64,000 nt of DNA from Quercus robur (lineage: Eukaryota > Streptophyta > Magnoliopsida > Fagales > Fagaceae): positions 51,883,406 to 51,947,405 of the forward strand of contig NC_065542.1 of assembly GCF_932294415.1 (NCBI RefSeq). Direction: 5' to 3'. The notes under the pieces were generated by a model, which did no database searches, was not told where the DNA came from, and saw only the letters and a list, made by a program, of their open reading frames with translations. Made by a program: the position numbers and the translations under genes. Of the stretch, positions 20,326-63,071 are shown piece after piece (within the stretch, counting starts at the first letter, position 1; each line of letters begins with the position of its first letter).

Positions 20326-20981
20326 AGGCGGCTTCAAGTTATTATGGTGACCACATATTATGTTAGAAACAAGACAACATGTTTGAGCCGCTAAACTAAA
20401 GGGTCAAAAGTATCCTTTGGTGGACTAGCATTTTGTTCTCAAGCTCCAACAAGGGCATATTATAAACCTTGAATGCAAAAATCTCAAGCTCCCTGCTTCA
20501 CCGCTTAATTCCATCAAAACTTTTGATTGGAAGTGAATGTCCGTGAAGAATGTACTTGTTATTGTCCCCATCTATTTTATTTTGGTTGGGATTTTCAAAT
20601 TGGTGTATTGTTTGGTAGCTAAGAAAGTGCAAGAAAATTAAAGAAATTGAGGATCTAAAAAAAAAAGGTTTTCTTTATTTTTTTAAAAATTAATTTTTCC
20701 ATATTAGTTTTTGGTTTGACATGCATTTTTCCAGTTGTTGTTGAAATGCTTCTGTGGCCTTTTAAATGTTAAATATTTGATTTTATATATGTTTTTTGCC
20801 ACTTGTATGCCAACAAAGCATATCGTTAGCCACATAGGTATTTTCTATTAGTGAGTTAACGGTAGAGACCAAATTAACTCTAAGTTAAAAATAATAGGGA
20901 CCAAATTGACTACTACAAAAATGTAGGGGCCAAATTAATTGTGACTTCAAAATTTAAGAACCAAAATGATGTTTTTGCCTT
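20326..20981. other. Gene-free spacer
   Basis: This includes the second copy (20430-20518) of the intronic segment from the GPI-anchored protein gene, and a 'gggaccaaattgac'-type dispersed repeat at 20860-20960. No gene was recognised. Confidence 0.5.
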
Positions 20982-23118: not shown

Positions 23119-23735
23119 CACTACAAAACGTGGGGGCCTTGGGCCGCGTTTTTTAAGCCGTGGCCATAAAAAACGCGGCCCAAGGCCCAGTTAAAGCCCC
23201 GTTTCAAAAAATGCGGCCCAAGGCCCACCTTAAGGTTGCGTTTTATACGCGGGGCCATAGACAGGTTATTAGGCCGCATTTTTTTGAGAAAAAAACGCGG
23301 CCTAAGGCCCTTCCGCATTTTATTTTTTTCTCAAACTCTTTTTTTTTTTTTTTTTTGTCTTCTTTTACTGTGGCCGCATTTTTAAAATGCGGCCCAAGGT
23401 TGAGCCTAAAGCCCCGTTTCAAAAAACGCGGCTTCACATAACCTTAAGGTCGCGTTTTTTGCGCGGGGCCATAGACGTGTTCTGAGGCCGCGTTTTTTTG
23501 AGATAAAAACGCGGCCCAAGGACTGGTTCTGAAGCCGCGTGTGAAGACGCGGCTCTAGTATGATTCTGAGGCCGCGTTTTCTTGAGAACAAAACGCGGCC
23601 TAAGGACTGGTTCTGAAGCCGCGTGTTAAAAACGCGGCTCTAGTTCGGGTTGGGGCCACGTTTTTGAAACGGGGCTTCAGAGTTCCCCTATAGCCGCATG
23701 TTAAAAATGCGGCTTTAGGGGAAGTATAAATATTA
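23119..23735. repeat. Left subterminal array of CACTA element
   Basis: Repeated short palindromes of the form GGCCGCGTTTTT...AAAACGCGGCC, spaced by 'caaggactggttctgaagcc' and similar text. GC content is well above the surroundings. In En/Spm the subterminal repeats are binding sites for TNPA, so these are the likely sites for the protein encoded at 45793-51881. Confidence 0.85.
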
Positions 23736-23749
23736 ATGAAACTCTCCAA

Positions 23750-24063
23750 CCCATCATCTACCCGTCCATCAGATCAACCGCTCCCATCCGATCTCAACCC
23801 ATCTCTGATCTACGCTCCACCCGATCACCTCCGTCCTCAGCACCTCCGTCCTCATCACCTCCGTCTGATCTCAACCCATCCTCATCACCTCCGTCCGATC
23901 TCAAGCCTTCATCCGATCTCAAGCCATCCTCATCACCTCCGTCTGATCTCAACCCATCCTCATCACCTTCATCTGATCTCAACCCGTCCGATCTCAACCC
24001 TCGCCCTCCATCCGATCTGAAGCCTTCATCCGATCTCAACCCTCGCCCTCCATCCGATCTCAA
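23750..24063 (+). repeat. C-rich minisatellite, 'TCCGATCTCAACCC' type
   Basis: Irregular repeats of 'catcacctccgtc(t/c)gatctcaaccc'. Reading frames through it on both strands are low-complexity artefacts. It lies just inside the left subterminal array. Confidence 0.8.
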
Positions 24064-24280
24064 CCGATCTCAAGATAAAACCCTAAATTTCACCCACTTT
24101 TTTTTTAATTTTTTTTATCCTTCCATTTGAGTATACTCTCCGCCGACGCCGCCGCCGAGAGACCAGCCCAGCGCCGACGACCCCAACGCTGACAAGGCCG
24201 AACCCAACTCAGCCTGCCGAATTCTCATACCCATCGACGACCCATACCCAACGCCGCCGAGCCCATCGCCGACAAGCGTA
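24064..24280 (+). promoter_or_regulatory. Candidate CACTA promoter and non-coding first exon
   Basis: A GC-rich stretch (24140-24275, rich in 'cgccg') follows an AT-rich piece and ends at a possible 5' splice site, AAGC|GTATGT near 24279. In En/Spm the promoter and first exon lie just inside the left end, and the transposase frames lie within the first intron. This placement is inference from that model. Confidence 0.35.
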
Positions 24281-27200
24281 TGTACTCTCTCTCTCTCTCT
24301 CTAGTGAATTATAAGATTGATTTTTTTTTTTTTAATCTATTTGGTTTGTTAATATGTTGAACTTTTCATTTATTATATCATGACTTCTCTCAGACTTTGA
24401 AAAAGTGGGATCTAAAGTGCGATCCATTAGGTACAGCTTGGTTTGGTTTTAGTTTGTAGTCAAATTGGGATCTAAATGACTTTTTTTTTTTTAATATGAA
24501 AAAGTGAGAGACCAACCTTGTAGATTAAGGTACATATGGGCTAGTTTATTGGGTAATATTTGATCTGGTGGTTTTGTGTGAGCTTTGAATATGTGTGAAT
24601 TTTTGGCTTTCCTATTTATAAAATGTACCATGATAATGTGAGTGATTCTGGGTAAAGAAATTTTGGGGACTTGGGCAATTGACTGTTTAGTAAAAAAAAG
24701 GAAAATTAAAACCTTTCTCAAAAATGGGGTTTTGGTTGAATTGAGTATTTTGTTTAAATCGAAATCAAAGGGGAATTTAGAGCATGGTAAACTTAGCTAC
24801 TGAAGTGAATTGAAGTCTGTATCTGAAACTTGGCTTCAATGCTTCAGCTGTGCTTGAAATTTTTTTCATCTGGATTTCCATAATTAATTTTAAAGATGCA
24901 TACCTAAGCATTTGTATGCATGAGGCATGTGCAATTTCTTTGGTTTGTGAGAATGCTTAATTATGGTAGAAGTTTGTATTGCAACTTAATATTTTTTCCC
25001 ATCTAAAGTGAAATGAAGAAGTTTGAGTTTTCTGATCTCTTAATCTTTATTCCAAAAGGACATTTATTTCTCATTCGTCCTCTACAATTGATGATTGAAC
25101 CACAGGAAAATTAGGAGGTTGCTCATCTTGATTCTTGACCACTAATTCTAAATTATTTTTGGCTGCAATATAGGCTGAATAGAAACTCCTTTTGGTCCTT
25201 TTCAAAAAGTTAGTGAATGGTCATTGCATCTACCTCAATAATAAGACAACTCATGTGAAGAAGCTTCACTTATATATATGCGTGTCTACATTTACTCTTG
25301 CTAAAACATATAGTTTATTATTGGGTGCCAGTGACTACAGATTTTACAAGTATATATGTACACCAAGAGGTAACACCTAATTGAGCTACAAATCTCTTAA
25401 CTATTGTAGCACAATCTTAAATAAAAGGTAAAGGGAGTACATACATGAACAATTTGTTTCTTGGATGACCTCAAAAAGAAAAATAAATGTGCTTCGATGC
25501 AATTTACTAAATAAGTGTGTAGAAATACATTTTTTATTTTTTAGAGAGTTTTAACCTTAATATTGATAATAAGAAGCTACTTTATATGAGAGAGAGTTGG
25601 TTCAACACTTGCTACTTTATATGTAGAGTTAGTGTCTTCCTTTTCTTAGTTGTTGGTATGGACTGCTGTTGTATGTCCAAGGGCAATGGACCCTTAATGT
25701 TGATAAGCTGTCACTGCAGTGTTTAGTTATAATTTGGTTATGGCTGCAACTGTTTCCTTGTTTCAGGTTCATCTACTGACTAAGTAGGTTGTTGGGATAT
25801 TAGGATGATAGGAAGGAAGGTGTAGAAGGCACAACAATAATGGGATTTGAAATGGTTATACTTATACCGCACTGCCTAAAATGGTGTATTTGTGAAAAAG
25901 AAATAACTGCACTTTTGCGGCTGTTGAGAATAACTGAAGTTCTTATGTTAGTCAATAGCTCCTCGATAGGATGTTTGCCATAATATGCTTCCCCCCACCC
26001 TCCCTTTCTCTCTCCTTTTCTCCTATCCCTCGATAGGATGTTACTGATGCTGTAAATTTTTCTTAAATAACAAATGGTTTGATGCATCCTTATGCTGTTC
26101 TTTCTATACTGTTACAGTTGACTAATATAGTTTACAAGTATTGCTCAAACTTATGGAAAAACTCAAAGTTTTACCTCGCAAGCCTCTTTTAAGATTTGAA
26201 ACAAACCTAGGTCTTATTTGTTGGAACTGTCCTTATAATGCGTGCCTTAGCTTCTGATTAGCTCCTTAAACCACTCTATTTTAAAGCCTCTGCTGCTGTC
26301 CAGAAATTTGTTATGACCCTGTTATTGTGTTCATATAAAATCTCAAAACCCTTTTACAGTTCCAGCCCTTAAATTACCATTTATCCTATTATCGGCAACC
26401 AATCATGTTTATTTTTTTTGGTTGGAAACTCTATATATGTACATATGTCACCCAGAACATGACCAAGGACAAGATCTAAAGGGGTAGAGGGGAATGAGAT
26501 TTTTGAAAATCTTTTAATACAATACACACTCAAAAAGGCTCAACTCTTAAACTTGTAGCACAAAGCTTTCATTGTGGGGTTTAACTAGTTAATATTTTTT
26601 TGATAGATAAACATACAGGGGTAGAGGGAAAAGAATTTTTGGAAACCTTACAATATGGTACACGCCACAAAATGGCTTAACTCTTTTTTGTTTTTTTAAA
26701 AGTCAAAAGGGCCTAACTCTTTGAACGTGTAATGCAAATAATTATTTTAGTTTTCCTTTGGTTATTGAATAATTGCTTTACACAGTCTTTCATTGCATTT
26801 ACTTGTGTGTTATGATCAACAAACCAGTTCTCAAGAACACGAAATGACGACAATAACTGCCAATCGTTACAAAAAGTTAATAAATAAATTGTATTTTATA
26901 TCCTTCATTACTTGTTTTTTCTTACAAATAAATTTTCGTAAAATTAGATTGTAAATTGTTACTTATTTTGATATTGTCCCTTACTCATGCTTTCTCACTA
27001 ATTGATAATTGCTACTATACCAGTGTTTTATCTTTTCTTAAACTGCTACTACACCAACACCTATAATAACGTTGGGCTTTGACTTAGACTTGGTCTTGCT
27101 CTTGGCTTCATAAATATGAAAGGAAGACACAATTGCTAACAATTCATATTTATATGATAAGAGTGCATACCTATGACTTACAATCATGAAACTTGACACC

Positions 27201-27420
27201 TATCCAAAATTAATAATAAAAATAAATAAATAAATAAGGATGGTAATAGGGGTGTGTGGTAATGATTGTTCCAGAAAACATATTTGATTCTTGATAGTTC
27301 AATTAATCAATGAATGTTTCTTGTATTACAATTATTGTGCTAATGAATAACATGATATGATATTCTTTTCTCATTTTGTTGATAAATTTAAAAATGGAAT
27401 TTTTTTTTTTTTTTTTTCAG
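24281..27420. other. CACTA left cargo region, no gene recognised
   Basis: AT-rich sequence without a recognised frame, except for the first copy (26195-26479) of a 285-bp segment repeated identically at 28441-28725. Confidence 0.55.
26195..26479 (+). repeat. 285-bp direct repeat, copy 1
   Basis: From 'tttgaaacaaacctaggtct' to 'aaggacaagatctaa' the text is identical, by eye over the whole length, to 28441-28725, including an eight-T run. The identity implies a very recent duplication inside the CACTA element. Confidence 0.9.
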
Positions 27421-28223
27421 AATCCAATTGTTTGTTTAAACTAAGCAAGCTAACAAATTTAAATTTAAGGGATAACTACTTTGACAATAAAATTTTATGA
27501 TTCTTTGGTGCCCTCCCAATTCCTAAATCTCTAAATCTAAGTTTCAATAACATGTGGTCTCTTTCTAGCCAAAGTACATGCATATCTGAATTTTCTTCCT
27601 CAACAATACCATGAAAAAGTTTAGACAACTAAAATCTTATAACCAATATTTACCTTTATCAACATTTACTCTCTTCGGGTTTAAAAGCACAAAATGCTTC
27701 AGAGCAATATATACCTAATGCTTTTGATATATGCAAATGATAGTAGTAGTATGCCTTCAACATTCAATTGGCATTTTAATCGAAAATTTTGTCCATTCTA
27801 ATATAAAAATGTATAGTTCTACTAGATATTTTTTATGTACTATTGGTTTCAAGCTGATATATGAAATTATGAGTATCTCTTCACCGGTGATGTAGAACTG
27901 GCTTATCTAAACAACTTGAAGTCCTCATCTTGGCTAGTAATGGCCTTGATGGAAGCCTACCATTCAAGGGTAAACATTTGATCTATTTTTAATGATTTTC
28001 CCTCAATTAATCGCCTAAATGGAAGCCATTGTAAAAGACTTTCTCCTAACACTACTATCGTTATTTCACTTGGTAGATATGGCAAATTTCAGCAGTTTGG
28101 AGATTTTAGATTTGAGTGGAAATTATTTCACTGGAAGCATTACTCCATATATCAAAGTGTTATCTTCTCTCAAGGCTATATCATTATTTGAAAATGAACT
28201 CAATGGAACTTTAAACACTCTAG
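27421..28223 (+). pseudogene. Captured receptor-like protein (LRR) gene fragment
   Basis: Three exon-like pieces with splice signals lie in order. Piece 1, from 27421 after a poly-T/CAG acceptor, reads LFKLSKLTNLNLRDNYF, then has a stop, then FFGALP and KSLNLS. Piece 2, 27896-27969, reads ELAYLNNL then, after a 1-nt deletion, LILASNGLDGSLPFK, ending at a GTAAAC donor. Piece 3, 28077-28223, reads MANFSSLEILDLSGNYFTGS, SSLKAISLFENELNGTL and ends at a GTAAGA donor. These are LRRs of the extracellular receptor-like-protein type. Introns are kept, so genomic DNA rather than cDNA was captured. No kinase, signal peptide or transmembrane part is present. Confidence 0.8.
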
Positions 28224-28445
28224 GTAAGAATCCACTTAAAAATCAGGTATTTACAATTTTGATTAGAAGTGTGGGAACAATTATTGAAAGAGAGTGCAAC
28301 CATTCTCTTTCAATAATTGTTCCCACACTTCTAATCAAAATTGTAAATACCTGATTTTTAAGTGGATTCTTACCTAGAGTGTTTAAAGTTCCATTGAGTT
28401 CATTTTCAGATAATGATATAGCCTTGAGAGAAGATAACACTTTGA
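28152..28445. repeat. Near-perfect 145-bp inverted repeat (hairpin) over LRR exon
   Basis: Arm 1 at 28152-28296 and arm 2 at 28301-28445 are reverse complements with a 4-base spacer (caac) and about two mismatches that I can see. The arms contain the end of the captured LRR exon 3, its 5' splice site and intron sequence. A transcript across it would fold into a long double-stranded RNA. Arm 2 ends in tttga, shared with the start of the adjacent 285-bp repeat. Confidence 0.93.
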
Positions 28446-28725
28446 AACAAACCTAGGTCTTATTTGTTGGAACTGTCCTTATAATGCGTGCCTTAGCTTC
28501 TGATTAGCTCCTTAAACCACTCTATTTTAAAGCCTCTGCTGCTGTCCAGAAATTTGTTATGACCCTGTTATTGTGTTCATATAAAATCTCAAAACCCTTT
28601 TACAGTTCCAGCCCTTAAATTACCATTTATCCTATTATCGGCAACCAATCATGTTTATTTTTTTTGGTTGGAAACTCTATATATGTACATATGTCACCCA
28701 GAACATGACCAAGGACAAGATCTAA
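28441..28725 (+). repeat. 285-bp direct repeat, copy 2
   Basis: This is identical to 26195-26479 at an offset of 2246 bp. It begins where arm 2 of the hairpin ends, sharing about 5 bp. Confidence 0.9.
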
Positions 28726-31700
28726 GCACTGCTGGCTTGCTTTCTTGCTTTGCAATGCCCCCAACAAATACCTTTGAAAAATAGGGCAAAGCAAAAGGGA
28801 AAAACAGAAACATCTGGTCAACTTGTTTGATTCTATGTCTGTGTGTGTGTCTCTCTCTCTAACATTGTATGCTCTCTCAAGGTGTACCTGTTTGAGAAGG
28901 GACATTGTTAATGACTAAAACCCCTTTTTATATTGCTAATAATGATGATTAGTGGCCCTCCTTTCAACCTATCTTTGTCATTAATTATTCATGTTTATAC
29001 ACTGCTTACTAACATGATTAACAAATGGGCTCCACACAGTACTGATCCAAACTTCTATTACTGATTTTGTGTTGTTTTGTTCTTTAAAATCCATGTTGTT
29101 CCACTTTTGAATACAAAGGCAAATCTTGGTTTTTAGCTTGTTCTTGATCTTATATATAGAATTAGGATTATTTATCTGCACATATAACACATAAGTTCGA
29201 CTGTGGCTTTGAAATTGTTCATAAAATAAACTATAAGTATTGTAGATTATGAATTTATTATTATGCGCCGCAAAACTCGACTAATTTGGATCACATCTAA
29301 TTTGAGACGTGCACGCATTAGCACATGGTTTTGGATTTGGGAAAACCTGCTCATTTTTTCCATATTTCTAAACTTAAAGGTGTCAATTCTCACTAGCTTC
29401 CAATTTTGTATGCGCTCAAGTACGTAGTATCCAAACATATTTTGAAACATTTTGACCAAAATTAAGTCCTCTATTTTATCATGCATGTTTAATAATTAAT
29501 ATAGTGATTTGAAATTTGTAATAATATAGTGGTTGATCGATCAGCTCCGATAAAAAATCCCTACATAGTGATGTGATATGCTCTAAATCACCTAACTTTA
29601 TTGAATTTTGTATATGTTCACAACCACAAAAGTATTGAAATAATCGGGCTGCATATTGATCTTCTAATATAAAAGAAATGACCAATATTGAGTCAGGTAA
29701 ATTTGAGAATTCAATAATTTAGTGTGGGAATAAAGCAGTTTTAAACTTTAAAAAAACTTAGAACATCATATTTAACCAAACTTTTTCTGTTTCTGTTTTT
29801 TTTTTTTTTTGGCTTGACTAACCTAGCTAGGGTTTCTATAAACCATTTTATTTTAGACTCATCCCTATCGATGTTTTCTGAATAAATGGATACACACATA
29901 TATTGTACTATAGTACAAAATAAAAAAAAATTACGTCACTAAGAAAGATTTTGGAAAGTTAAATAATGGTAATAACGCGCACCCAACTTTTCTTCTGACT
30001 CCTAATTAACATTGTCAAGGAAATTAAGCTGAGTGAATTAGTGAAAAGCTAATTTGATATGCTCCTAGGGAGCCTGCATGCAGCTAGCTTAATTTGATAC
30101 ATAATTATGCTTTTCACTTTTTATGGTTGGCTGCTCTTAATTAGGATGTTTTCTTAAAGCATGGGATTAGGCACACTAATAGCAAAAAACATGCAATAAT
30201 TAAAGCTTGCTTTAACCTGTTTAACTAAAAATATAGAAGGAAAAAAAAAAAGATTCCCTACGTAATAATGGTATGAATGTCAATATATGTATTGTGCATT
30301 TTGTTCTCGTGAGTGAGTGTTTGTGTATTTTGCTTAATTCTATAGTGTAATTGGTTGACTTGGTTCAATTGTTCTATTTGTGATTGGTTGAATGCTGCTT
30401 CCTTCATTGTTGACCACTTGTTTCTTGATAGTTGATTCCTTGTGATACATATCTGTTGCTGCCCATGCACTATGACACTTGTTGGGGGCTATTTAACACG
30501 GATAGAATTAGAAAGGCATCTAGGAATGCTCTTTTTGTAGGCTTGGGTTAGACTAATTTGTGATTTTAGTATTCCAAAAGGTGAGAGAGCTTTTAGGCTT
30601 GAACATTCTTAAGTAAAGTATTCACCACCACTTTATTTAACCTTATTCTCAGTATGGTGTTCTGCTTCATAATCTACTGTTTCTTGAAACCGTGACCTAT
30701 CGGTTTTGGTGGGAGGCATGTGCTACGAACCAAGGCTTGACTTTTATGCCTGAAAAAATCTAGCACCACACATTTTTGCGCTACTACTTTGTCACAACTT
30801 TGATGTGGCAGGCTATGAGTAGAGAAGAAAAAGAGGTGAGTTCATAGGACTGTAAAAAGCAATCAATCATAGTTTATCACAAAGGACAGTTATGGAAAGG
30901 GTGTTATTGAAACGCATTCTCTTGCTACTTAACAGATTTGACATGGGCTCTTTGGCATATACATCATGATTCTTTTTCTTTTTCTTTTTTGGATTTTATT
31001 GCTTGTATGAATTTTTATAGATGTGTTATAGTCATCCCTTGTACAACTTATTTGTTTGAATAAAATATAGAATGCTAAAGAGTTTCTTTTCAACATGAAC
31101 ATGATATGTGTACAAAATTGGCCACATGGATTGACACAGTTCAAGATCCAAGACTTAAAACATGATATTATGTCAGGAACTAACCCAATGTCTTTTTTCC
31201 CAGCTCAAAAAGTCAAAAACTCCACTCTGTTCAACCCATACGCCAGTCTGCTTCATATGGCTCTAACATATGCTTCTTTCAAACACCAATATCTGCAAAA
31301 AAAAAAGTATAAATTGCCAGTTAATACATAGTATTTTTGCTTGGTTAACGGCTATAAATATTATCAGGGTAGGATGCTAACATTAATACTATATGCAATT
31401 GAAAAAATAGCCACTGGCTTTCAAGAGAGCTACAAATGCATCATAATAGTAGGTCCATCATTTCCTTCCTGAGTAAAAACAGCTTAGACAACTCAATCAA
31501 ACCCCACTCTCTAACCCAAACATTTAGCATTTTTTTTTTTTTTTAAAAGCCAATACCTAATGTTTTAGTCCTAGAAAAGCAGGATCTTGGATACCATCCT
31601 AATTTATGCATTCTAGTGGCTGTTCTCATGGTGACAAGATAGCAGAAAAGGTAAAAGTGTTATTTTGGAGCCTTTTGGGTTTGAAAAATGAGCGTGTGAA

Positions 31701-33743
31701 AATACGAGCCATGAACTTCTTAGTTCTTATGGTGAAATTTTTTAGAGAAATTACACTTTACCTCCCTAACTTATACCCATGATTACAATTTGCTCTTTTT
31801 AGTGTAGTGTGTAGAAATGTTAGTAGAGGTAGAATGATGGATAGTTTTAAAATTTTCAATTTATACTTGTCCTTAATTAATCTGTCCTATTGTTAAATAA
31901 ATTTTAATTAACTAATAGGGTTTCTTGAAAGCACAAAAAGTGGACAACAAATTAAGATTTTTATTCCCTTGATAATAGTATAGATTACCTTAGAGAATTA
32001 CCCAAAAACCTACTATTTTACTGGTGTTGATCCGCATTAGGCTTTCACGAGGCAGCCAATTAACACCTTTTTTTTTCTTTTTTCTTTTTTCTTTTTTTGA
32101 TAGAAACCTTATATAAACTATTAATTGTAAAATAACACTATAGATTCAGCTTATATAAACTACTAATTGGAAAATAATACTATAGATTAGCAATTCTAGT
32201 ATATTCGTAGGTAGATGAGCCTATTTCTTTACAAAGTGGCTAGGACAGACAAGCCCATGGGCCCTTGGCTTAAGATAGCCACTAAATTGTAGAATAAGTT
32301 GGCTATAGATGGGTCATCCCCAGGAACCTTGTGCAAGGTGGGCTCAATCTTCCCATCCGAATTGGGATGATGATTGAGCTAAATGCCCCACGGATCTCCT
32401 TCGTTCAGTCCTAGGGCTACGATAGCGTTTAGGATAAGCAAACTATGGCCTCTACATTGTCACCTACTCACAACCACCCAACATTAAAGTGAAGAATAAT
32501 TCCTATGAACGGTAGATCAAAGAGATTAAAGAAATTATCCTATCAGTAAATCAAAATGAGTGAATAAGGTAATTCATTAACTGGATTAGAGATTAAAGAA
32601 ATTTAATCTAGACTCAACAAATCAATGCGTATATAAATGTTAAAAAAAAAAACTTTTTTTTTCTCCTAATGATTGCATTGGGGAAGTCTTGTATATTGTA
32701 ACAAAAACAGTCTTGGCAGGTGTATTATCTTTATCTCCATACACAAAGATATTTTTATGTTTTCTCTTTTTAATTTGTTTTTGTTTCGAAACGAAGGCAA
32801 GAAGCCGAAGGCACTCGCTATGAGCCTACGAGTGACTCTTCAGCCCATGGGCTGGTGTTGAAAAGTCCGGGTGTGTGTTGAGACCTTTTTCACTTTTTGG
32901 GCTAAATGTGTTTGTGACTATTGTGTCAACCAACGTGGTCTAGCCATATAAAAATACTAATTAAGTGAAATGCTCCACGGCATAAATATTTAAATATAAG
33001 TCATTGAAAGAGTTACAACTTTTATAAGTCATTGATTTGTAATTAATCTAATGGCCATGTCATCAACTTTCTACAAATAAGTGATCTAATAGCGTTAGTT
33101 ATCTCCAACCATGTCAATATATGTGGAGTAAGGCAGTTATCTAATTAACCTTTTGACATAATGTTCTTATGATATGTATAAATGCTGTTTTACATTCTTG
33201 TAATATTAAGTTTGTTGTTGTTTTTGCTTGCTTGCCATTGGCAACCAAGGCAGTGTATTATCAGACAAGAATGATAATAATTAAATTTAATGGGAATGTC
33301 TGCCACACTTCAGTTTGTTCAAAATGATCCACACTAATCTTCCTAACTTTGTGTCTTGGTTGCTGCCTTCATTAGGATATGCAACCTTCACTTCAGTACC
33401 ATTACATGCATTGTTTAGATGATTCATTAATCCATGGCTTTGTCTTTCATGCCCAATTCTTGAAGTTCTTAGAGTATGACTTAAGATTTTAATCTTTTGC
33501 CTTTGTAAATGTGGAAAATAGAGATGCATTTTGAAGACTTTCCATGGCTTGTTTTACCTACGCAGAACTTGCATTGCTGTCCTGGCATGCATCTTTGAGT
33601 TGGCAATTAATGGAATGCATTTTCTTTCTTCATTTAAAAATTTTTGGATACATGCTTCGTTGGATTATGTTATTATTGTTGATGTCCATGGGCAGGAAAT
33701 TGTCTTGGTATATACTCTAAAGGATTCTTTGATTCAATCTCAG
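28726..33743. other. CACTA cargo region, no gene recognised
   Basis: Unrecognised AT-rich sequence. It contains a 41-bp tandem pair near 32105-32190 ('cttatataaactaataatt'-type text). The stretch 30460-30830 has higher GC but no frame I can assign. Confidence 0.5.
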
Positions 33744-33815
33744 GTACTTGGATCACAACCAGTTGACAGGGAGAATTGACGCAGACTTCTAGAAACATCC
33801 TTTCTTGAAAGAATT
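33744..33815 (+). pseudogene. Isolated 72-bp LRR exon
   Basis: The exon is flanked by a CAG acceptor (33741-33743) and a GTGAGT donor (33816). Its length of 72 nt is the classic size for one 24-residue LRR in plant LRR receptor kinases. It reads YLDHNQLTGRIDADF, a TAG, then KHPFLKE. The stop replaces a residue that is probably Tyr in relatives. This gene fragment is separate from the one at 27421-28223. Confidence 0.65.
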
Positions 33816-36440
33816 GTGAGTATTCTTTGCCACTCAGATCTACGAAAGTCGTCAATTCCTGAGCTTGAGCATTGAATTGGGTATTCTATTGTCAATTACT
33901 TGTTTTTAACAGGTCTATTGAGGGTAGAATTTTTGTGTTCTGTTTGATAGAATTTTACTGATGGACTTTGTAGAATAATTGATTTTTTTCCCTTTGGCTA
34001 TAGACAAATTTGTGTCATGCTCACAGTGATAAAATTAATATGATCTTCATTCACACAGCTTGAAGTTTTGTAGAAATAACATTAATTACATAAGAATTGA
34101 AGAAAAAGGAATGCCAAAGTTGGAGGCTATTATTTACATTTTGTTTTTTGGCCTCCCTTTTACAATTACATTACGTTTTAACCACAATAGGTGTGAGTGC
34201 TTTTGTCTATCATATGATTTAGTAAACTCTCTATTCACATATTCAATGCATGCTCTTCAAAAGAGTTTGTAAGTTTTTCACTCTGTGAGTCTTGTAAATG
34301 TCTCAAATATACTAGAATTGTATATAGATAGGCCATGTCATTAGTTATAGGCTCTGGATGTTACCCTCTTGTTATGTCAAATTTGGAGAATCAGTGAGTA
34401 CAAATATGGAGTTTGAGCACTTGCTAATTTGATACTACTGTCCTCAGATTCAGTTGTGTTGAATGAAACTTCTCTAGGCATATTTTGTGTTTCACTTGAT
34501 CACAATTTTTTTTAACGTTCATATTTGAATGGTATCATTAATGTTTTCTCCTATTTATAAACATTTCATGCATTTATGAAAATATCCCAACCTAACTATA
34601 ATGAAATGAATATTTGACACACGGGTTATCTAACTACCACAATTGGAAAGAAAAAAATTTGTGTATGACAAAAACAAAAAGATATTCACAAGTAAGTTCT
34701 GATTTATCCGTTTTTATCAACATAAATTAATTTGATTTGGATATATTTTTCCAATAATTTAATTTCCAACTAGTTTTTAATAGATGAAGATGAAGCTCAC
34801 ACAGTCACTGCTTTCAAAGTGTAATTATTGTGCTCTCTTGGCATTGAGCCTTAAGTCAAAAGTCATTGGCTGCATATGTGACTTACCAATACAAATATTA
34901 CTTTGATTTTTATTTTATTTTTTGGTTTTCTTCTCCTATTGTCTTTTCTCATTTTCAATTTTCTAAACTCATTTGCATCATAACTATAGGTGCTATGGTT
35001 AATAATCAGTTCCGGCTGGCTGCTTCAGTGTAGACACCTGCGAAGATAAATTTTCAGCACATTTCTGGTGCTGTTATGATATACTAAAGGTATGCTTCTG
35101 CCCATATTTTATTTTATTTGTAATTCTTGGTTGAATTCTGATAGCTTTTGGACATGTAATTTGGGTAATAACTACATAGATGGAGTTGATCTTTGGTAGT
35201 GATGTATCTAAAATCAAAGACGTTCATTCTTTGACCTTTTCTGATTCTTTTGAGTACAAATATATACATAATAATAATCGTGGCAGGACTTAATCATTGA
35301 AATTCTGAAATATGCAAGGAAGCGTCTGAATAACTTTTTGAATAAATTTAGAGGTTTCTATGCAGCACAAAATCATGGAGTCATGCAAATAGTCTATCTC
35401 AGCAGATGTTGATGCTGCTGAAATTTATAAGAACTCTAACTGGCCAGCCATACATTAAAAATCATTAATTTTTGTGCTGTTAATATGACCTTTTGGTTTA
35501 CCCAGGAAATTTAAAAAATCTTTGCAGCAGTATTTTTTTGCCAGAGTAAGGAGAAAATGCTTCGACATGATTCATAGTGGCATATGCATATAAGTTTCTA
35601 ACATAGGCAAACCAAGTTACAGTTACATAAGTCTCATTATATATGCAACAGTTACAACTTCTTATATAAAACTTTTCATGTTCTTTAATATGAATTATTT
35701 CTTAATTTCAGGTGCAAACAGTAAACAAGCCGTGTGAAAATTTCATCCAGACTGGGCATCAAAAACTGACATTCGCTACCAGGTTGAAGCTGAACCATAA
35801 TTTATGCTTATTTCCCGTACAATATCATAAATATTTTGCAACTTCATGTCACTAAATAGTATGCTGATGGAATGATTTTTATTTTGTTTGGGAGGTCTGA
35901 ATTTTCTCTGGATATTTAGTTGTCTTTTGTTGTTAAAGTACATGATTTTATGTTAGGGATGGACCTAGTAGGGGGATCGGACCCTCCCCCGGCCCAAATT
36001 TTTTTTTTTTTTTCGTAGGTATATTTTATGTTATTAATAGTTGGGCCCCTCCCTTCCACAACCTTGGCCAATGTTAGCCAGCCCCGCCCAGACAACCTAT
36101 AGGACCCTTTTCAACTTTTGGACGCAAGGGAGAGCAAGGTGATCAAAGAGAGGAGATTGGAGAGGGAAGAGAGTAGATAGGCCAGACATGAAGCAGAGGG
36201 AAGAGAGAGAGAGAGTGTGAGGGAATATAAATCAATATATAGAAAAATAGAGGGTCCACCTAGGTGAATAAAAAAATAATAAAATTTTTTCTACCACGCC
36301 ACAATGCGGTTTTATTTATAGAACCACATTATTGCGTGTTGGAAAAATATTTGAGATTTGAAACACCCATGGAACAATGATTTTGGTGTTTGTTTTCCAA
36401 ATACCAAAAATTTGGCATTTGGCATTTGCCATTCTTTTCT
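33816..36440. other. CACTA cargo region with exon-like pieces of unknown origin
   Basis: Two short stretches have plausible acceptor and donor signals, 34990-35090 and 35712-35782, but I recognise no protein in them and both contain stops. At 35940-36080 a GC-rich 'gggggatcggaccctccccc' patch resembles a dispersed repeat. Confidence 0.35.
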
Positions 36441-36766
36441 AGAGCATTCACAATTGGCCATGCAAATGGCATATGTAAGCAAATTTTACCATTGAAGTAC
36501 TAAAAAGGCCCCAGCATTTGGCCTTGTATTGGTCTAGTATCCTAAAAAAATTATAATATTTTTTGTTGTTGGCATGGGGGAGAAGGGAGAGAGAGAGAGA
36601 TTGAATTATATTATTTTATTAGATAGTATATATTAATTTAATGGGTGGAATAGGAAAATAAAAATTGAGATGTTCAGGGTGTTTTAAAATAGTATGATGT
36701 AATGAATAAAATACCTTTTTGAGATGGTAAAATAGAATAAAATAGGAATTGAAGATGTGAATGCCC
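36441..36766. mobile_element. Short MITE, PIF/Harbinger-like ends
   Basis: The left end is GAGCATTCACAATTG and the right end, reverse-complemented, is GGGCATTCACATCTTC. The ends resemble those of the larger element at 53244-54605. It has no coding capacity and no exact target duplication. Confidence 0.45.
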
Positions 36767-39288
36767 TAATAGGAACAATTGGTACTTGAGCTCTTATCTT
36801 TTCAATATTAACCAAGTCTGGCGATAAATTATCATCATCAACCAACAATTCTTTTGGACTCGAGTTCCACTATCCAAATCAACAACTTCTACACCTGTTT
36901 CAGCACCCTCACAGACTAGTTGCCCTATCTTTACCGCACAAATGTACTAGATCATCCCAATTTGCAATTACTTTCCAATGAAAACTTCTAGCTTTTTCAT
37001 GGGACTATCAAGCATGAAAACGTAAGACTATGATAGTTCAAAATTTTTTTTTTTGGGTTATTAGGGATCATATATACGAACTAGTAGCACTCAAAGCTGC
37101 AACATTACAAAGTCTTACAAAGTTTTGTACAAATTTGACGAAGGCAAATCCAGGAATGCCATTTTATTATTAAACATAATGCAATTACATAATAATATAA
37201 ACATTGTTTAATGCCCACAAATGAATACAAAAACAATATGAAAATCCACTTTCAACTTTAGCATGAGTTTGAAATTATTCCCCTGAGTTTGTTCTAAATT
37301 ATGCAGTACCTTGAGTATTGGTGTACCGTTTCTGTTTTAACATAAGTCTGTAATTGTTATGTACTATTTATTTTCACGAGCATCCATCACATCTAATAGA
37401 GGCAGCTAATTGAAGGGATCTTGCCCCTTTTAGCTGCTTCAGCCTCTCCTCTTTCTTTTATATATACATCTTCTGCATTGTAGGTACACTGAGAAAAATT
37501 TTAGAGACCGAGAGCAAATAGATATAGAAATGGATAAGAAATTAGATGTTCACAATATCGCACAAATACTTATCATAAATATGATTAAAAAATATGATTA
37601 AACAATATCGTAAAAAATACACATATATAAGACTATCTTTAATCATTTAATCTTCATAACATTATAATAGATAACGCTGTGAAAATTTGGGATTGATTCA
37701 CCTATCCATTCCATTTCGAGATAGTTTTAAATTAAAATTCTATTTGAGCACACCACTGGAAATATAGTTTGACCATACTTGCTACTCCAAATAATTCAAG
37801 TCAAGACGTTTGATTTTCCCCCCTCATCACCCAAGTAGATTAACTAAGATTTTAAGAATATAATTACATACAAAACGTATAAAAGCCCAAAATTGAAAAG
37901 GATGAAATCAATCTAAAAGCATTAGCACTATCATGCAATATCCAAGACAGCCACTTGTAATAAGCACTATGAGAAGCAAATATACAACAAAAGATCATTA
38001 AATAGAACAACTCATCATCATCAAGAATATACCCACTTATCTTGTTACAAAAGACACATGGGAACTTAAAATTTAAACATTTTATACTAAGACAATACAA
38101 AATCGATAATAATAATAATCTTCTTTATAATTACTTGCAAGAAAAAAAAACCTAAATTGATGGAGTCCTTCATAGAAATAAAAAATCTTATCTTGAAATT
38201 TTTTGCTCATTCAACAAAATTATAAATAGACCATTTATAAAAAACATTTAAAGAAAAAAAAACCTGTATTTCTTTACCAACCATGCACTCAAGTAGAAAA
38301 AAAGTGTTGTTTTTTTTTTTTTTTTACTCCAACAATTTATTATTCAAAACATGTTCCAACTGTCCAAAAGAATAACAAAATAAAATTATGACAGACCAAG
38401 AGAGATTATAGGCGTCTTTGTTTTTTGTAGAAGCAAATATAGGCGACTTCGACAAAAAAATAATTAATAATTATAATATTATGATATTCAAATCTTGTAG
38501 TATTAATCCATTAAATGCATCAAGCTACAATAGTAAATAGTCTCACAAAATTCTACACCAAAGTAAAATGCAGAGCAACAAACAAAGAAAAACAAGATAA
38601 AGAATTCGTGACTTTTGTCTAAATTGTTCAATATCCATTTACATTCCAGATATTATACCTAAATGCAAACCATTAATTTGAGGTATCATAATTTGTGCGA
38701 GGGTATGAAGGAACATATTAAAGTTGAAATCAAGAAGATCTTAATGTTTGTGATTAAGCCCAAGTTAGTACCCCTTAAGCCCCCATTTGCTTTTCTATGA
38801 CAGAAAGCATTAGTAAACTAAAGTCCACAACATTCTAATAAACTAATGGTAATTTCACGACAGATGGGACCCCCCTTTTTCTGGTCTGAATTGTAAGTAT
38901 TAGAAAACTATAGGCCATAACATTCGAATAACCTAAACAGAATTTCACAATAGATGACTTAGTCTTGAAATGCGTAGATACTCCTTATGAGCCAAGTAAT
39001 TGAGCATCATGGTATTATAGACTTAATAATTATTAAGTTTTTAATAATTAGTACAATTATTAAAAACTTGATATTTGTTTTCATATTTTGTAAACACTTA
39101 TGCTTAACTACTTTTACAACTTATCACATTGACTTAGTCTAGGACAAGTGTTATATGTTCTAAGAAAATAGCCGCATACTTGGGTATGTCTGTTCTTAAC
39201 AAATGACAAATGAATGTAATTATAATAATTAGTATCTTTGTAGTAACAAATCTTGGTGTAGGTAAAATTCCGTAAATATTGTATCGCA
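36767..39288. other. Spacer upstream of CACTA transposase
   Basis: AT-rich with no recognised gene. A 3' splice-site-like 'ttggtgtag' lies about 30 bp before the transposase ATG, so this may be the end of a long first intron. Confidence 0.4.
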
Positions 39289-42200
39289 ATGGACAAAAGT
39301 TGGATGGAGAAGCGGAGGGGTACAAGGGAATATTTTGAAGGTGTAAACCAATTCGTGGAATTTGCTGCTCCATCTGCGCGCAATGGGAACATCTTATGTC
39401 CTTGTGTGAAATGTGTGAATTTGCTTATACAACCGCTAAATGTGGTACGTGAGCACTGTTGGGCTTCGGGGATGCTTAAAAATTACAAAGTTTGGAAATT
39501 TCATGGTGAATCGGCGGCTGCTACGCCAGCTACCGAATGTGGGAGCTCTCATGTGCAAGAAACCCAAAATCCATATGGTGATTTCCATGGGATGTTGCAC
39601 GATTTGTGCCCCCCGCATGAAATCCCACCCGAACCAATGGAAGAAGGTCCAACTGCGCAATGTCCGGGTGAAGGTCCGAATGATGACGCCAAGAAGTTTT
39701 ACAATATGGTAGATGATGTAGACAAACCTTTATATGAAGGTTGTACAAAATTTAGCATTTTCTCAGCCATTGTCGTGTTGTTCCAGTTGAAGACTCTGTG
39801 TGGTTGGACAAATAAGTCATTTACTCTGTTGCTTCAAGTCCTGATGGATATGCTTCCTTCAGACGCTAAGTTGCCAAAGGACCATTATGAGGCTAAGAAG
39901 ATAGTTCGAGATTTGGGTTTGGGTTATGAGAAGATCCATGCTTGTCCCAATGATTGTATGCTGTTTTGGAAGCAAAATGTTAACCTTGAGGCGTGTCCTT
40001 GTTGTAAAGCTTCAAGGTGGAAAACAAATGAGGCATCTGTTGCTAGTAAGCATGCTTCATCCAGTAAGGGGAAGAAGAAAGCTGCGAAGATCCTACGGTG
40101 GTTCCCCTTAAAGCCAAGATTGCAGCGACTATTTCTGTCACCCGATCTGGCTAGTTCTATGAAATGGCATGTTAATGGTCGTATTGATGATGGGGTAATG
40201 CGGCATCCTGCTGACTCAGATGCATGGAAAATCTTTGACAGTAAGCATTTACACTTCTCATCTGACCCTCGTAATGTCAGACTTGGATTAGCTGCGGATG
40301 GGTTCAACCCCTTCGGAATTATGAGTACTAGTCACAGTACGTGGCCTGTCATGTTGGTCCCGTACAATCTCCCACCTTGGCTGTGCATGAAACGGTCATC
40401 TTTGATTCTATCATTAGTTATTCCTGGTCCTACCTCGCCAGGGATTGCTATAGATGTGTACTTGGAACCGTTAGTAGAAGAACTAAGGGAGTTATGGGAT
40501 GTTGGAGTACAAGCATACGATGCATCATCAAAAGAAGTATTCCAATTGCGTGCAGCATTGATGTGGACCATAAATGATTTTCCTGCATACGCAGATTTGT
40601 CGGGTTGGAGTACCAAAGGTGAGTTGGCGTGTCCTTCTTGTGCCGTTCAGACCGAGTCTCGATATTTGAGAAATGGTCGCAAATTCTGTTACATGGGACA
40701 TCGGCGATGGTTGGATGTTGACCACGATTTCCGCAAAGATGGTATGTCATTTGATGGATCTATTGATACTCGATTGGCTCCTGAACCACCAGTCACATCT
40801 GACATTATTGTGGAAACTGAACATTTACTTGGACGTTGTCTGGGTAGGAAATGTCAGCTTGCTTACAAAAAAAGGAAGAGAAGGGAGGCAGACCAGAGTG
40901 GTTGGAAGAAAATGAGTATATTTTTTACCTTGCCTTATTGGGAGGATCACAAGTTGCGACACAATCTTGATGTGATGCATATAGAGAAGAATGTGATGGA
41001 CAATATACTAAGCACACTGTTGAACTTGAAGGATAAAACGAAGGATAATTACAAGGCACGCCTTGACTTGGCGGACATGGGGATAAGGAGTGAACTCCAC
41101 CTACAACGAAAAAGTCATGACCAGTATACCATACCGGCTGCATGTTTTCATATGACTTCATCGGAGATAGATGGTTTCTTGCAAGTTTTGAAGGATGTAA
41201 CAGTGCCCGATGGGTATGCTTCCAATATCTCACGGCGTGTGAATATGAAAGAACGCAAGATTTCTGGTTTGAAGAGTCATGATAATCACATATTGATGCA
41301 GCAACTTTTTCCCATAGCATTACGTGGGTCTTTGCCATCTCATGTTAGTAGGCCTTTGATAAAGTTAGCTTGCTTCTTTAGAGAAATTTGTTCCAAAACC
41401 CTTACGGTTTCAGATATTGTGACTAGTGAGGCAGAGATTGCAGTGACATTGTGTGAATTGGAAAAAATATTTCCTCCATCCTTCTTTACAGTGATGGTAC
41501 ATTTGGTCATGCACTTAGCTGCTGAAGCTAAGATTGGTGGTCCAGTGCACTACCGTTGGATGTATCCCATTGAGAGGTAAGATGTGTGTAATATTGTTGA
41601 TCAACTTCCAGTTTCATGTGCGTGTTCGAATTACCATTGCCAATCATTAATCTTATCATTCCTTTATAGGTACCTCTCACGTCTTAAGTCTTACGTACGA
41701 AATAGAGCTGCTCCGGAAGGGTCTATTGCTGAAGGATACATAGTAGAGGAGTGCTTAACATTCTGTTCACGGTATATGGAAGGAGTGGAAACTATATTCA
41801 ATCGACCCACCAGGATGATTGAGGAGTCAACGGGGGTGGTTTCGATCATGACATTAAACAATAAAGAGTGGACCCAAGCCCATCGCTACGTTTTATTCAA
41901 TTCTGAAAACATCAACCGCTTTCGTGAGTAAGTATTACATATACAAATGGCCTTTGCACGTCAATCCAATGTACGTAAGGTCTATTAACCCTAATACAAT
42001 TGCCTGCACAGGATGCACAAAAGATTGATAGAGGATGAACTTCGAAAAGGCCACAATCGTAACGTTTCCGATGCCATTATATATAAGCACCACATGGAGA
42101 AGTTTTGTACTTGGTTTGGGGGTCACGTACGTATGACATTTTCAACTTATTAAACTTGTAACACTGTCTCAACCATGATTAACTGTACTGATATGAATTA

Positions 42201-42963
42201 TTTTGTTTTGGCCAACTGATGTTAGGTGATGTCCCTCACTGGTGCTGATAAGGAAAGGGAGGGAGTTAGTGATACCCTTGTTGCATTGTCCAAATGGCCG
42301 TATATTTATGTAAAGCGGTTCAAGCATTATGTAATAAATGGCTTAAAATTTAGGAGTGTAAATGATGAGGCAAATAGGAAAACGCAGAATAGTGGAGTTA
42401 GTGTGGCTACTGATGGGGGCAATACTTACTATGGTATTTTAAGTGATATAATTGAGTTGAATTATTCTGACAATATCAAACATGTGTTATTCAAGTGTAA
42501 ATGGGTTCATGACCAACATAGGAGAGGATATAGGACTGATGAATTTGGGTTTCCTATGGTAAACTTTACACACTTCATACATGGTGGGGATAAAATGATA
42601 GATGAACCATACGTTTTGGCATCTTAAACTACACAAGTTTTTTATGTGGAAGATAAAAGGCACAAGGATTGGTATGCTGTTGTCAAAACTAAAGCTAGGG
42701 ACGTGTTTGATGCTGGTGTTGGTCCCCAACGTGAGGAGGATGACATATATAGTTTTTCTGAAAATGTTCCCTACAATATAAGTAGTAATGAGGTTGTGAG
42801 TGACAACCTTCGTTGGGCTCGGGATGATCTAGAGGGAATGACAATTGATGCCTCCATCATTGCTGAAAGAGATCTTCATGGAGTAAACAATGAAGATGAG
42901 TTTATTGACGATGAGTCTGACAATGAAGACGACAACAAGGATGAGTACACCGAGGATGAGTAG
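39289..42963 (+). pseudogene. CACTA TNP2 transposase, four exons, one nonsense codon
   Basis: Exons 39289-41576, 41670-41927, 42012-42126 and 42226-42963 join in phase through GT-AG introns (for example ATTGAGAG|gtaaga, tttatag|GTACCTC). The 1132-codon frame contains an N-terminal transposase-associated domain (MDKSWMEKRRGTREY, CPCVKC), the TNP2 domain (LGLAADGFNPFG, NDFPAYADLSGW, CPSC, HNLDVMHIEKNVMDN), DUF4218 (GSLPSHVSRPLIKL to YPIERYLSRLKSYVRNRA) and DUF4216 (YYGILSDIIELNY, VFYVEDKRHKDWY), then an acidic tail. TNP2 cuts and joins the element ends. TAA at 42625-42627, codon 1021, stands where CAA (Gln) is expected. The 111 codons after it are open. If translated, the product would lose the end of DUF4216 and the acidic tail but keep the TNP2 core. 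Confidence 0.92.
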
Positions 42964-45792
42964 TGTAATAATTTAGTAGTGTATTATGTGTTTGGATGTT
43001 ACAGTTGTTAATGAAAACGTATTCATTCATGAATTAGTTGGAATGCCTCTGTGTAATATTTGTTGAATTTGGTAATTCCTCTTCATATTGTTAATTTTAT
43101 TAGTTTTTACTTATGATGTATCCAATTCCTTCCCCTCTTCGCTATTGGATTTGAAATTCATTTCTTATGAACTTGGATATATGATCGTGTGGTGTTAGGG
43201 TTTCTTTTCGTTGTGGTTGTAGTGTTTGGCAAAGAGAAGCTCTTAAACTTGGATAGGGTAGTTTATATATTTTTAGATATTAAAATAAGTTATTTTACCC
43301 AAATGAAAATATGGCTAGGACTGAAACCATTATTCCGAAACTAGGTTTATATCATACCATATAGATTCGAACCAACTATCATGTTAATAAATAGGTATGG
43401 TTAGGATCGAAACTAGTATTCCAAAACTAGGCTTAGGTCATACCATATTGATTTGAATCAACTATCACGATAAGAAGTAAGTATGGGGAGCTAATCCACT
43501 CGAGCCTAGTCCTAGTTCAAAAAGGAACACCTGTACAAGTGAATATACCTACCCCTCCAAATATACACTTTTACCATCACCTTCGTTTTGTTCACCAATG
43601 CAATACATTGTTTGAGCTTAGCGTGTCTAATAATCGAGCTTAAGCTTGTGATTAGATTTGACTTGTTTGCAAAAACCCAATTTTGAAAATTTTCTCTTGG
43701 AAACATTTTCTCTTCATATTCACTAGGAGAAAAACTGTCTTTCTTTTTGGATCACGAATTTATTAGCCCTAAGGTTTTTTGTAGGGGGGTTATTAGCCCT
43801 AAGGTCTTTTTTTAGGGGGATTATCATCATAACTATAGGGTAGTTTGATCATAATTATGTCGCACTTATTTATAATGTCATTTTTGAAATTTGGATCAAA
43901 TGATGTTGATATTGCCAATTGCGTTCTTCAAATGCAGATATAGATTGACAGTGATGGTAACCAGCAAGACTATAGATTAAAGAACCCGTGTATTAGGCAA
44001 TTTGCTTCGCACTAAGCTCCCCTCCAATCAGCCAAGACTATGCCTATTGGCTAGAAATACCTTTTTTGTCTCCGTTTTCCGTGAAACACCCTATCTCTTC
44101 GGCATCTTTGGAATGCCCTATCATTTTTCTCTCTTTACCAAGTCTGATATTAGAAAATAATCATGGCTTGTGTTTGTAAATGTTTTTTGTTTTACCTAAC
44201 CAACTTTATAATATGCCAATCCAAACTTTATCTTTTTTTTCTTTGGATAATTACATTGATTAGGAAAGAGATTTGAATCTTAAATGTCTTATTTGAAAAC
44301 AGTAATTGAGTTATGAGACTCTTGACAATTTTAATTGAACTTAAAACTGAGAGATATAAATCAATTGGAACCGAGCCAAGTATACATGTGTAAGTTCTTA
44401 AAGTTCGGCTGATCAAGCTAAAATTTTTCTGTCACGAATTATCTATGAATCTGATTACAGGAAAGTGAAATAGGCATGTCTTGCCAGGTTAGGTCATATA
44501 GCCTTAATTCAAATTGGGTATGTACTAAAACATGATCCCACTCCTCCATATTATTGTAAAAACAATTTATGAACAATTACAGTACTCTCAATAAACAACA
44601 TGCCAGTATTAGACATTTATAGGATCATAGTGGTCAGACTTTCGGTATGGGTTAGTTTAATATGAATGCTTTTTATTATCATGCTATTTTCCATTTGTGG
44701 CCTACTGTTCACAATTTTGCTATAAATGGAGGATTTTTTTTATTTTTTATTTTTTCAGTTTACCAATTGAAAACCGTAATAAAGAAAAATCAACAACCAA
44801 AACCTCACCCGTTCATTAAGTAATTAGTTGTATCTAGGGACACCAATACTCACTGCTAGCTAGGACCATATGACATCACCTTATATAAATTTTTTTTTAT
44901 TTTTTATTGAGAAGAAAAGCTTATATAATTTTAATGTAATAATGGCATGAGGTAAGCTGATTACATCACCATCCTTAACTTGTTCTGTGATATTTATGGG
45001 CCCATTTTATTGTGTCCTTCATTAAGACATTACCCCAATTATGTTGCATGAAACATTCCACCCTTTCTCCAAGTCTGATGGTGGATAGTACTCATCCTAT
45101 AGCTGAACGAGTCCTGAATATCTTATTATTTGTAATTTTTGAAAGTTGAAACCCCTATAGAAAGGGACATTCTAACCAAAGACATAAGCTGCATAGATAC
45201 ATTTTAGCCAGACAGACCCTACACAAAAAAGATGGAACCACAGTGGGTGGAGACTAGAGAAGAAGAGAGAAACCTTTCTTTCTTCCCAAACATCATTAAA
45301 ATTGAAAACCCATTTATCATATGTCAAAACACTTGATTTTTTGTACCTCAGTTGCTTATAACATGCAGTACAAGCTAACTGTCTAAACCCACCAACACAA
45401 AAAAGGTGTCATTAAAAACATAGACGTCAAAAGCAAATTAAAATTTTTCTTTTTCTTTTTCTTGTTGTATTTATTTACATGAGTTGTAGCAGATTGTAAA
45501 TATACCAAAGTCTAGCTTTTTATTGGTTCATTTATGGGGGTTTTAAAATCATCTTTAATATCTTACCTTCATGATCTTAATTACCATAGGTCCTAACCCA
45601 GCTCAATTCTAACAAAAATTGCGACATTTAATATAAAGTTTTCTTCTGGCTATCTTGGTGCACGAAACGTGTATATGGTTGAATTATTGTAAAGGGTGTC
45701 AGAACCTAAAAATGTTTAACTTACATTTTATGCAATTGCTTGTTGTCTATAGTTAACACTTTTTTTGTTTTGTAAAGTTGTTAGACGCAGGA
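42964..45792. other. Spacer between the two CACTA genes
   Basis: AT-rich with no recognised gene. It contains an 86-bp tandem pair at 43310-43395 and 43396-43481 ('aaactagg...tcataccata...caactatca'). The promoter of the second gene should be near its right end unless both genes share one transcript. Confidence 0.5.
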
Positions 45793-46412
45793 ATGGGTAA
45801 GAAACGCCGATTGCCAGTTGTAGAAGTCGGCGAAGGACCCTCGAGTTCACGACAGAGAGGGGAGGAGCTGCAAGCCGCCCATACTAGTGATGCTGGGTCA
45901 CAACCCACAGGTAGTTTACATATCTTGAAATGTAACGTTTGATATTTAAGACTGTTGTAACTAATTTTTCGGTCCTTTGCTGCAGGAAAGGAGAGGGACC
46001 ATCCATTGACAATTGTGCAAGTTGGCCAAGGTTCATCACGCTCACGAGACATCATGCAGGAGGAGTTAAGGGCCGCCTATGATGCTGAGCACGCAAGATG
46101 GGAGGAAGGAGATGATTATGATGATGATGAGACACAGCCGCCTTCTGCAGGTAGTTATTCGTACAGTGTAAATTATTCTTAGGGTAAGACTTTTATGTTT
46201 GATGTTAATGACTAAACACCTATATCTTTAACCTTATGTTTATATGGTTTCAATTTTTTAGTAGTTTTGACTTGATACATACTTTAATTATTGAAGTAAA
46301 ATGAAATTTACTAATTGAATGAATTAAAATTCACACAATGATCCAAAGAAGCAGACAACTAAGATAGCTTAGCTCAGTTGTACATCTCCACAAGAAGAAG
46401 ATATAGGGTCAA

Positions 46413-46449
<37 letters not shown>

Positions 46450-51881: not shown

Positions 51882-52195
51882 TATAATATCTTCGTGGACT
51901 CGTCATGGACTCTTCATGTATAATTTCTAGTATATTCGGAATATTGTAACTTCGTGGATATTGAAAATATTGTAAACATAATTGTAATATTGTTTGGACT
52001 ATTTGTGGACTCTTCATGTATAGTTGTTTGGATATTTATTTAGAGAAAATTAATGCTTGAGAAAATTCTTACTTGATATTTTGTTGGAATTCTGGGTTGT
52101 TATTAGAGATATTTTGTTGAAATTTTTGTATGTTTGACAGGTTTTGTAAAAAAACTCTGCCCAGAAAAAGAAAATAAAAAGGAAAAAAAAAAAAA

Positions 52196-52830
52196 AATAC
52201 TATAGCCACGTTTTTAAAACCATAAAAACGTGGCTATAGACCAAATTCATATTAAGAATTCGGGGGGCTTAGGCCGCACTTAAAACGCGGCCTAACGTTG
52301 TAATCTTGGGCCGCGTTTAAAACGCGGCCTAAGCGCACAACCTTAGGCCGCGTTTTAAGTGCGGCCTAAGCATGAACCTATGGCCGCACTTTTTAAACGC
52401 GGCCTAAGGTTGAACCTTGGGCTGCATTTTAAACGTGGCCTAAGGTTCACCCTTGGGCTGCGTTTAAAACACGGCCTAAGGTTGAACCTTAGGCCACGGT
52501 TAAAACGCGGCTTAAATGAGTTTAACAGGCCATCACAATGGGACGTATGGCCGCACTTTTTAAACGCGGCCTAAGGTTGAAAGGCTTAGGCCGCGTTTAA
52601 AACGCGGCCTAAGGGTACGGTCTTAGGCCGCGTTTTAAACGGGGCTATAGGACCCGGGCTTGGGCCGCGGTTAAAAAGTGCGGCCATAGGACCATCAGTC
52701 CTATAGTCACGGGTTTTAGGCCACATTAGGAACCGTGGCCTAAAAAAACGTGGCTATAGGCTATAGCCACAGTTTTTTGTCTTGTAGCCGCGTTTTAAAA
52801 ATGCGGCCGGAGGTCCGTTTTTTTGTAGTG
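52196..52830. repeat. Right subterminal array of CACTA element
   Basis: More than ten GC-rich palindromes of the type TTAGGCCGCGTTTTAAACG, CGGCCTAA, spaced by 'gttgaacctt' or 'gcacaacct' text, run to the terminal TAGTG. Some units are the TATAGCC variant seen in the intron array. Confidence 0.88.

Positions 52831-63023: not shown

Positions 63024-63071
<48 letters not shown>

Follow-up and report, generated by a model that had tools for sequence, protein, structure and literature searches.

How does a transposon come to carry a near-perfect hairpin made from a piece of an LRR gene? The question is raised by a palindrome in a 64-kb window of oak DNA (the window is the whole stretch that was analysed, 64,000 nucleotides). 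New siRNA and miRNA loci are supposed to start out as gene-derived hairpins, whose origin is hard to read in old, decayed cases. A preliminary description reported two 145-bp arms with a 4-base spacer and about two mismatches at this locus, and our analysis recovers the same structure at the same positions:

28152..28296, + strand: left arm, consisting of 72 nt of an exon end and 73 nt of intron
28297..28300, + strand: spacer, CAAC
28301..28445, - strand: right arm, an inverted copy of the left arm (143/145 complementary)

The two mismatched pairs are at 28188 (T vs C) and 28294 (G vs A). Complementarity ends abruptly, as the first position outside the arms is unmatched and only 6 of the next 24 outward positions match. 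The 145-bp palindrome is far above chance expectation. In a screen of the whole 64-kb window that allowed at most two mismatches and a spacer of less than 60, the runners-up are a TA run of 24 and CACTA subterminal repeats of no more than 35 bp. The longest arm in each of eight random 64-kb sequences with the dinucleotide frequencies of the window is 15–18. In + strand RNA both arm mismatches become G-U wobbles, and all 145 pairs form in the predicted fold (−242.3 kcal/mol for 318 folded nt vs −56.0 ± 4.0 in 100 shuffles, none of which is as low). The structure is thus predicted to be capable of forming long dsRNA, as had been proposed. Searches of the window against Rfam return no match at gathering thresholds, ruling out a known RNA family or a described miRNA family for the hairpin.

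The palindrome resides in a large transposon, with 5.0 kb between it and the left end and the transposase gene starting 10.8 kb downstream of it:

23119..52830, + strand: CACTA (En/Spm-type) transposon of 29,712 bp, with termini, TTT flanks, subterminal motifs and tnp2
39262..41577, + strand: tnp2 transposase exon (PF02992, PF13963, PF13960), followed by an apparent GTAAGA...TATAG intron

Judged from its sequence, this is a CACTA element in its ends, target duplication, tnp2 and subterminal repeats, consistent with the setting given in the preliminary description. The element starts with CACTACAAAA at 23119 and the complement ends at 52830; 10 terminal bases are identical, a pair that falls short of a 12/15 terminal-match screen. 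A 3-bp target site duplication, TTT, flanks both ends, and all 23 of the GCCGCGTT/AACGCGGC subterminal motifs in the window are within the element, near its ends. Matches to tnp2 domains are above cut-off, and later exons extend to about 42624 (PF13960, PF13952). The transposase may be intact because the stop that closes the first exon falls in the apparent GTAAGA...TATAG intron. Weak Transposase_24 matches at 49.5–51.8 kb are under the curated cut-off. The element is potentially autonomous and looks able to move. A Pack-CACTA, which is non-autonomous, is ruled out, given that the element has its own tnp2 exons. Also within the element, at 31175–31303 on the - strand, is a weak match to PF01648 (ACPS; 17.4 bits vs a cut-off of 25), possibly another captured fragment or a match by chance.

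The sequence from which the arms derive belongs to a series of LRR exons and introns inside the CACTA element, and the captured LRR-gene fragment that had been described there is supported:

about 27421..27554, + strand: degenerate LRR exon, interrupted in frame by a stop at 27498–27500 (identified by eye in the translated frame, without a tool match of its own)
27905..27969 (start approximate), + strand: end of a second LRR exon, with an apparent change of frame within and a donor at 27970; inside a match to 9uob_A
28077..28223, + strand: 147-bp LRR exon (acceptor end, 28076; donor, 28224); LRR_1 above cut-off

The LRR exon end, the splice donor at 28224 and the intron are all within the arms, as first noted. 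The product of the 147-bp exon is MANFSSLEILDLSGNYFTGSITPYIKVLSSLKAISLFENELNGTLNTL. Alone, this exon matches Pfam LRR_1 with 23.4 bits (cut-off of 20.6), and the long read-through that contains it scores 13.8, below the same cut-off. Twelve of 13 matches to PDB sequences are to plant LRR receptor kinases or kinase-domain proteins and one is to an antifreeze polypeptide; in a further search of PDB sequences, the best 60 of 170 matches are mostly plant LRR receptors. No match to the 147-bp exon was found in NCBIfam and, as expected of plant DNA, none to 26480–28300 in a plasmid collection. The captured piece appears to be an internal fragment of plant-type LRR, and its donor was probably a receptor-like gene. 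The preliminary description went further and took the captured gene as receptor-like, with receptor-like-protein genes of a putative immune receptor family as the target. Its plant-type LRR character holds, whereas an identity as RLP rather than RLK and a role in immunity do not follow from matches that give plant-type LRR only. The stop in the first exon and an apparent break in frame before the donor at 27970, both read by eye, give the piece the look of a pseudogene fragment.

Absent from the preliminary description is the larger scar of which the palindrome forms one end:

26195..26479, + strand: first copy of a 285-bp direct duplication, with sharp ends (285/285 identical to the second copy)
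26480..28440, + strand: insert between the two copies, 1,961 bp, containing the LRR fragment and most of the palindrome
28441..28725, + strand: second copy of the 285-bp direct duplication (285/285 identical to the first copy)
28441..28445, + strand: TTTGA, the overlap of the right arm with the second copy, a 5-bp microhomology

This perfect flanking duplication suggests how the hairpin originated. Overlaps of at least 5 bp, the size observed, occur in 0.87% of 200,000 random joins within 24–39 kb. GC content is 0.345 and 0.325 in the outer flanks, 0.354 in the 285-bp repeat and 0.29–0.31 in the insert. Because the GC content of the insert is lower than that of the repeat and flanks, there is a weak hint that the repeat and outer flanks belong together as one unit. 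The termini of the repeat are TTTGAAAC...GATCTAA, and the outer flanks (...TTTAAGA and GCACTGC...) are unlike each other. Two ordinary sources of direct repeats do not apply. An LTR retrotransposon or TRIM is ruled out, as the repeats are without TG...CA ends or a target duplication of 4–6 bp, and a simple tandem duplication of 285 bp is ruled out, as each copy is followed by a different sequence.

In our assessment, the best explanation, to which we assign a probability of roughly 0.6, is that the locus is a templated-insertion repair scar within the CACTA transposon that combined LRR capture, a fold-back and a microhomology join. The anatomy is observed, and from it we infer the mechanism and the order of events. 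A staggered break (or an equivalent repair intermediate) in the transposon would have left a 285-bp stretch on either side of the repair, a stretch that is presumed to run natively into position 28726. The left broken end would have copied ∼1.8 kb of an LRR gene located elsewhere, introns included. The nascent strand would then have turned back and used itself as template for 145 nt, and the end of this fold-back would have joined the right end via the 5-bp microhomology TTTGA. The predicted product is a mobile inverted duplication. Capture of the LRR piece and formation of the hairpin probably occurred together, in a single event at the DNA level.

Several features argue for a repair scar. 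A perfect 285-bp direct repeat, with ends that are not LTR-like, brackets 1,961 bp, and the palindrome enters the second copy via the 5-bp overlap. In six frames of 24130–38900, LRR matches are confined to the insert (the one Pfam match and 13 of 13 PDB matches), with no LRR exon found beyond it in those frames at E ≤ 0.5 for Pfam and E ≤ 1 for PDB sequences. The GC content of the insert is lower than that of its surroundings, which is weak support for the repair model. The introns are kept, so copying was at the DNA level rather than by retroposition, and a retroposed gene is ruled out. Last, differences are few, with none in the 285 positions of the repeats and two in the 145 of the arms.

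The perfect repeat and the 5-bp overlap are equally well explained by a history of two steps, in which the LRR fragment was already in the element beside the 285-bp sequence and a later template switch contributed no more than the inverted arm and the second copy. Arms and flanks could then differ in age, and differences of 2/145 and 0/285 are too few to tell ages apart, so that two events may have occurred. But if the fragment had been there beforehand, the gene would be expected to go on past the palindrome, and no LRR was detected in the six frames of 28726–38900. The GC content of the insert is also unlike that of the repeat and of both outer flanks. We consider a two-step history unlikely. 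The palindrome might also have been present in the donor gene or pseudogene and copied along with it as filler. The window is compatible with such a history, yet the outer end of the palindrome is the very junction with the second copy and has the 5-bp overlap, which is better accounted for as a joining point than as a chance cut, making an inherited palindrome improbable. A fold-back chimera produced in assembly or amplification would belong to a known type of artefact, the inverted chimera with a short spacer. However, the two arms are not identical, differing at two positions, and beyond them the sequence goes into the second copy and then into new sequence instead of simply running back; we regard an artefact as very unlikely.

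What the hairpin might do is a functional matter that is compatible with any of these origins. Long hairpin RNA, once transcribed, is a good Dicer-like substrate, and any transcript across the hairpin would be expected to be cut by Dicer-like enzymes into small RNAs. The likeliest effect of such a transcript is silencing of its own locus; silencing in trans of related LRR genes may also be possible. The preliminary description proposed that the locus, if transcribed from the CACTA promoter, could feed production of small RNAs against receptor-like-protein genes. The long, near-perfect hairpin on which this idea depends is present, with an unbroken 145-bp stem in the predicted fold of the + strand RNA, and there are precedents in maize. 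Gene pieces captured by Helitrons, Pack-MULEs and Sireviruses reportedly serve as reservoirs of siRNA (PMC13317346), and Mu killer, which duplicates part of a transposase gene, silences MuDR by way of a proposed hairpin RNA of ∼4 kb that is suggested to arise from read-through from a flanking gene (PMC3440606). Like Mu killer, the locus is an inverted duplication able to yield hairpin RNA. It differs in that its hairpin is a piece of an apparent LRR pseudogene with arms of 145 bp, and any silencing by it would be hypothetical.

The case for silencing in trans is weakened by the pseudogene appearance of the captured fragment and by the composition of the arms. By their coordinates, 52 of the 125 possible 21-mers in each arm are wholly exonic, 53 are wholly intronic and 20 span the donor. 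With intron making up half of each arm, the 21-mers that could pair with a spliced mRNA are in the minority. There is also no second copy of the arm within the 64-kb window. Active silencing in trans is therefore doubtful, with little probability in our estimation. The fuller scenario, in which one repair event supplied both a captured gene piece and a silencing trigger to a potentially autonomous transposon, and small RNAs from the hairpin now down-regulate intact members of the receptor family, is very doubtful. If small RNAs are made, the locus would be a test case for how a transposon acquires a trigger that silences host receptor genes; otherwise, its value is as a clean record of plant fold-back repair.

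The age of the scar can be gauged only very roughly. The copies of the flanking repeat differ at 0 of 285 positions and the arms at 2 of 145. With a substitution rate of ∼7 × 10−9 per site per year, 2 differences in 430 sites would correspond to about a third of a million years. Both differences in the arms are C/T (G/A) transitions, a pattern that matches deamination of methylated cytosine, though with two sites this is no proof. Alternatively, the fold-back itself may have introduced the mismatch at the third pair from the loop.

The scar shares features with several types of repair product. Insertions with flanking target duplications, attributed to patch-mediated repair of double-strand breaks, were reportedly described in rice by Vaughn and Bennetzen in 2014. 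The insert here likewise has the direct duplication on both sides that is said to define this class (285/285 identical around 1,961 bp), although 285 bp may be long for it. It differs in ending in a snap-back palindrome and in being located inside a transposon. Foreign filler is reported in 58 of 94 excisions of DNA transposons in rice, with a mean of 13 bp and a maximum of 123 bp (PMC4423477), far shorter than the 1,961-bp insert. In yeast, fold-back inversions at breaks are reported to range from 2 to about 150 bp, most of them <14 bp, with 0–5 bp of joining microhomology; those described are primed by a 10-nt inverted microhomology and have a 41-nt loop (PMC11724301). The hairpin resembles these in being an inverted copy of adjacent sequence with microhomology of 0–5 bp at its joining end. 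Its 145 bp are near the top of the yeast range, and its loop is 4 nt versus 41; neither a loop of 41 nt nor a 10-nt inverted microhomology of the yeast type is visible at the hairpin. For the repair model, the frequent filler in rice and the size and microhomology ranges in yeast are supporting evidence; the shortness of the rice fillers and of most yeast fold-backs, and the differences in loop and priming, count against it. It is also from a plant, natural and joined with about 1.8 kb of ectopic filler, unlike the fold-backs reported in yeast (PMC11724301).

Other comparisons concern gene capture and the fate of hairpins. Tgm-Express1, a CACTA element of soybean, is reported to be 5.7 kb with fragments of five genes (PMC1947982), and Pack-CACTAs are described as non-autonomous (PMC8903248). 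The oak element is like both in having CACTA ends that carry host exons and introns. It differs in having tnp2 and in that the captured fragment and palindrome are between the copies of a perfect 285-bp duplication (PMC1947982; PMC8903248). In rice and Arabidopsis, inverted duplication is the assigned origin of most TE- and pseudogene-related miRNA genes (PMC3237417). An inverted piece of a gene or pseudogene is the raw material for a hairpin in those cases and here, but the arms of this hairpin are still near-identical and without a match to a miRNA family. A CACTA-borne hairpin from fold-back repair of a captured receptor gene does not appear in the titles and abstract starts of the open-licence PMC matches listed. 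Ordinary in kind, the hairpin documents with unusual clarity a way in which hairpins of this type can form. The arms match at 143 of 145 positions and the two flanking copies at all 285, so that the junctions are readable, and they point to a repair event that included a fold-back step.

The neighbourhood of the CACTA element includes other repeats. Near its right end, on the + strand at 55283–59529, are the remains of an L1-type LINE, with matches to a zinc knuckle, endonuclease, reverse transcriptase and zf-RVT across several frames. At 59965–61615, a 3'-5' exonuclease-like reading frame (PF01612 at 60863–61339) is flanked by inverted copies of ∼186 bp that are 84% alike; no target duplication of 8–10 bp was found around these copies. 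Two stretches (82% and 76% identical) recur with their order preserved at 20980–21978 and 62634–63858, to the left and right of the CACTA element, and are perhaps copies of one older element. A 207-bp tandem duplication is contained in 62256–62672, and another of ∼0.9 kb, with 85% identity, is at 3452–5342. A second, more diverged inverted structure is present at 17604–19417, where two minisatellite arrays with units of ∼29 bp and a CCCTAAAACCTAA-like motif are inverted relative to each other and are 74% alike over ∼1.65 kb. Last, at 977–1699 on the - strand is a reading frame with a C1 domain (PF03107) and a long Q/L-rich start.
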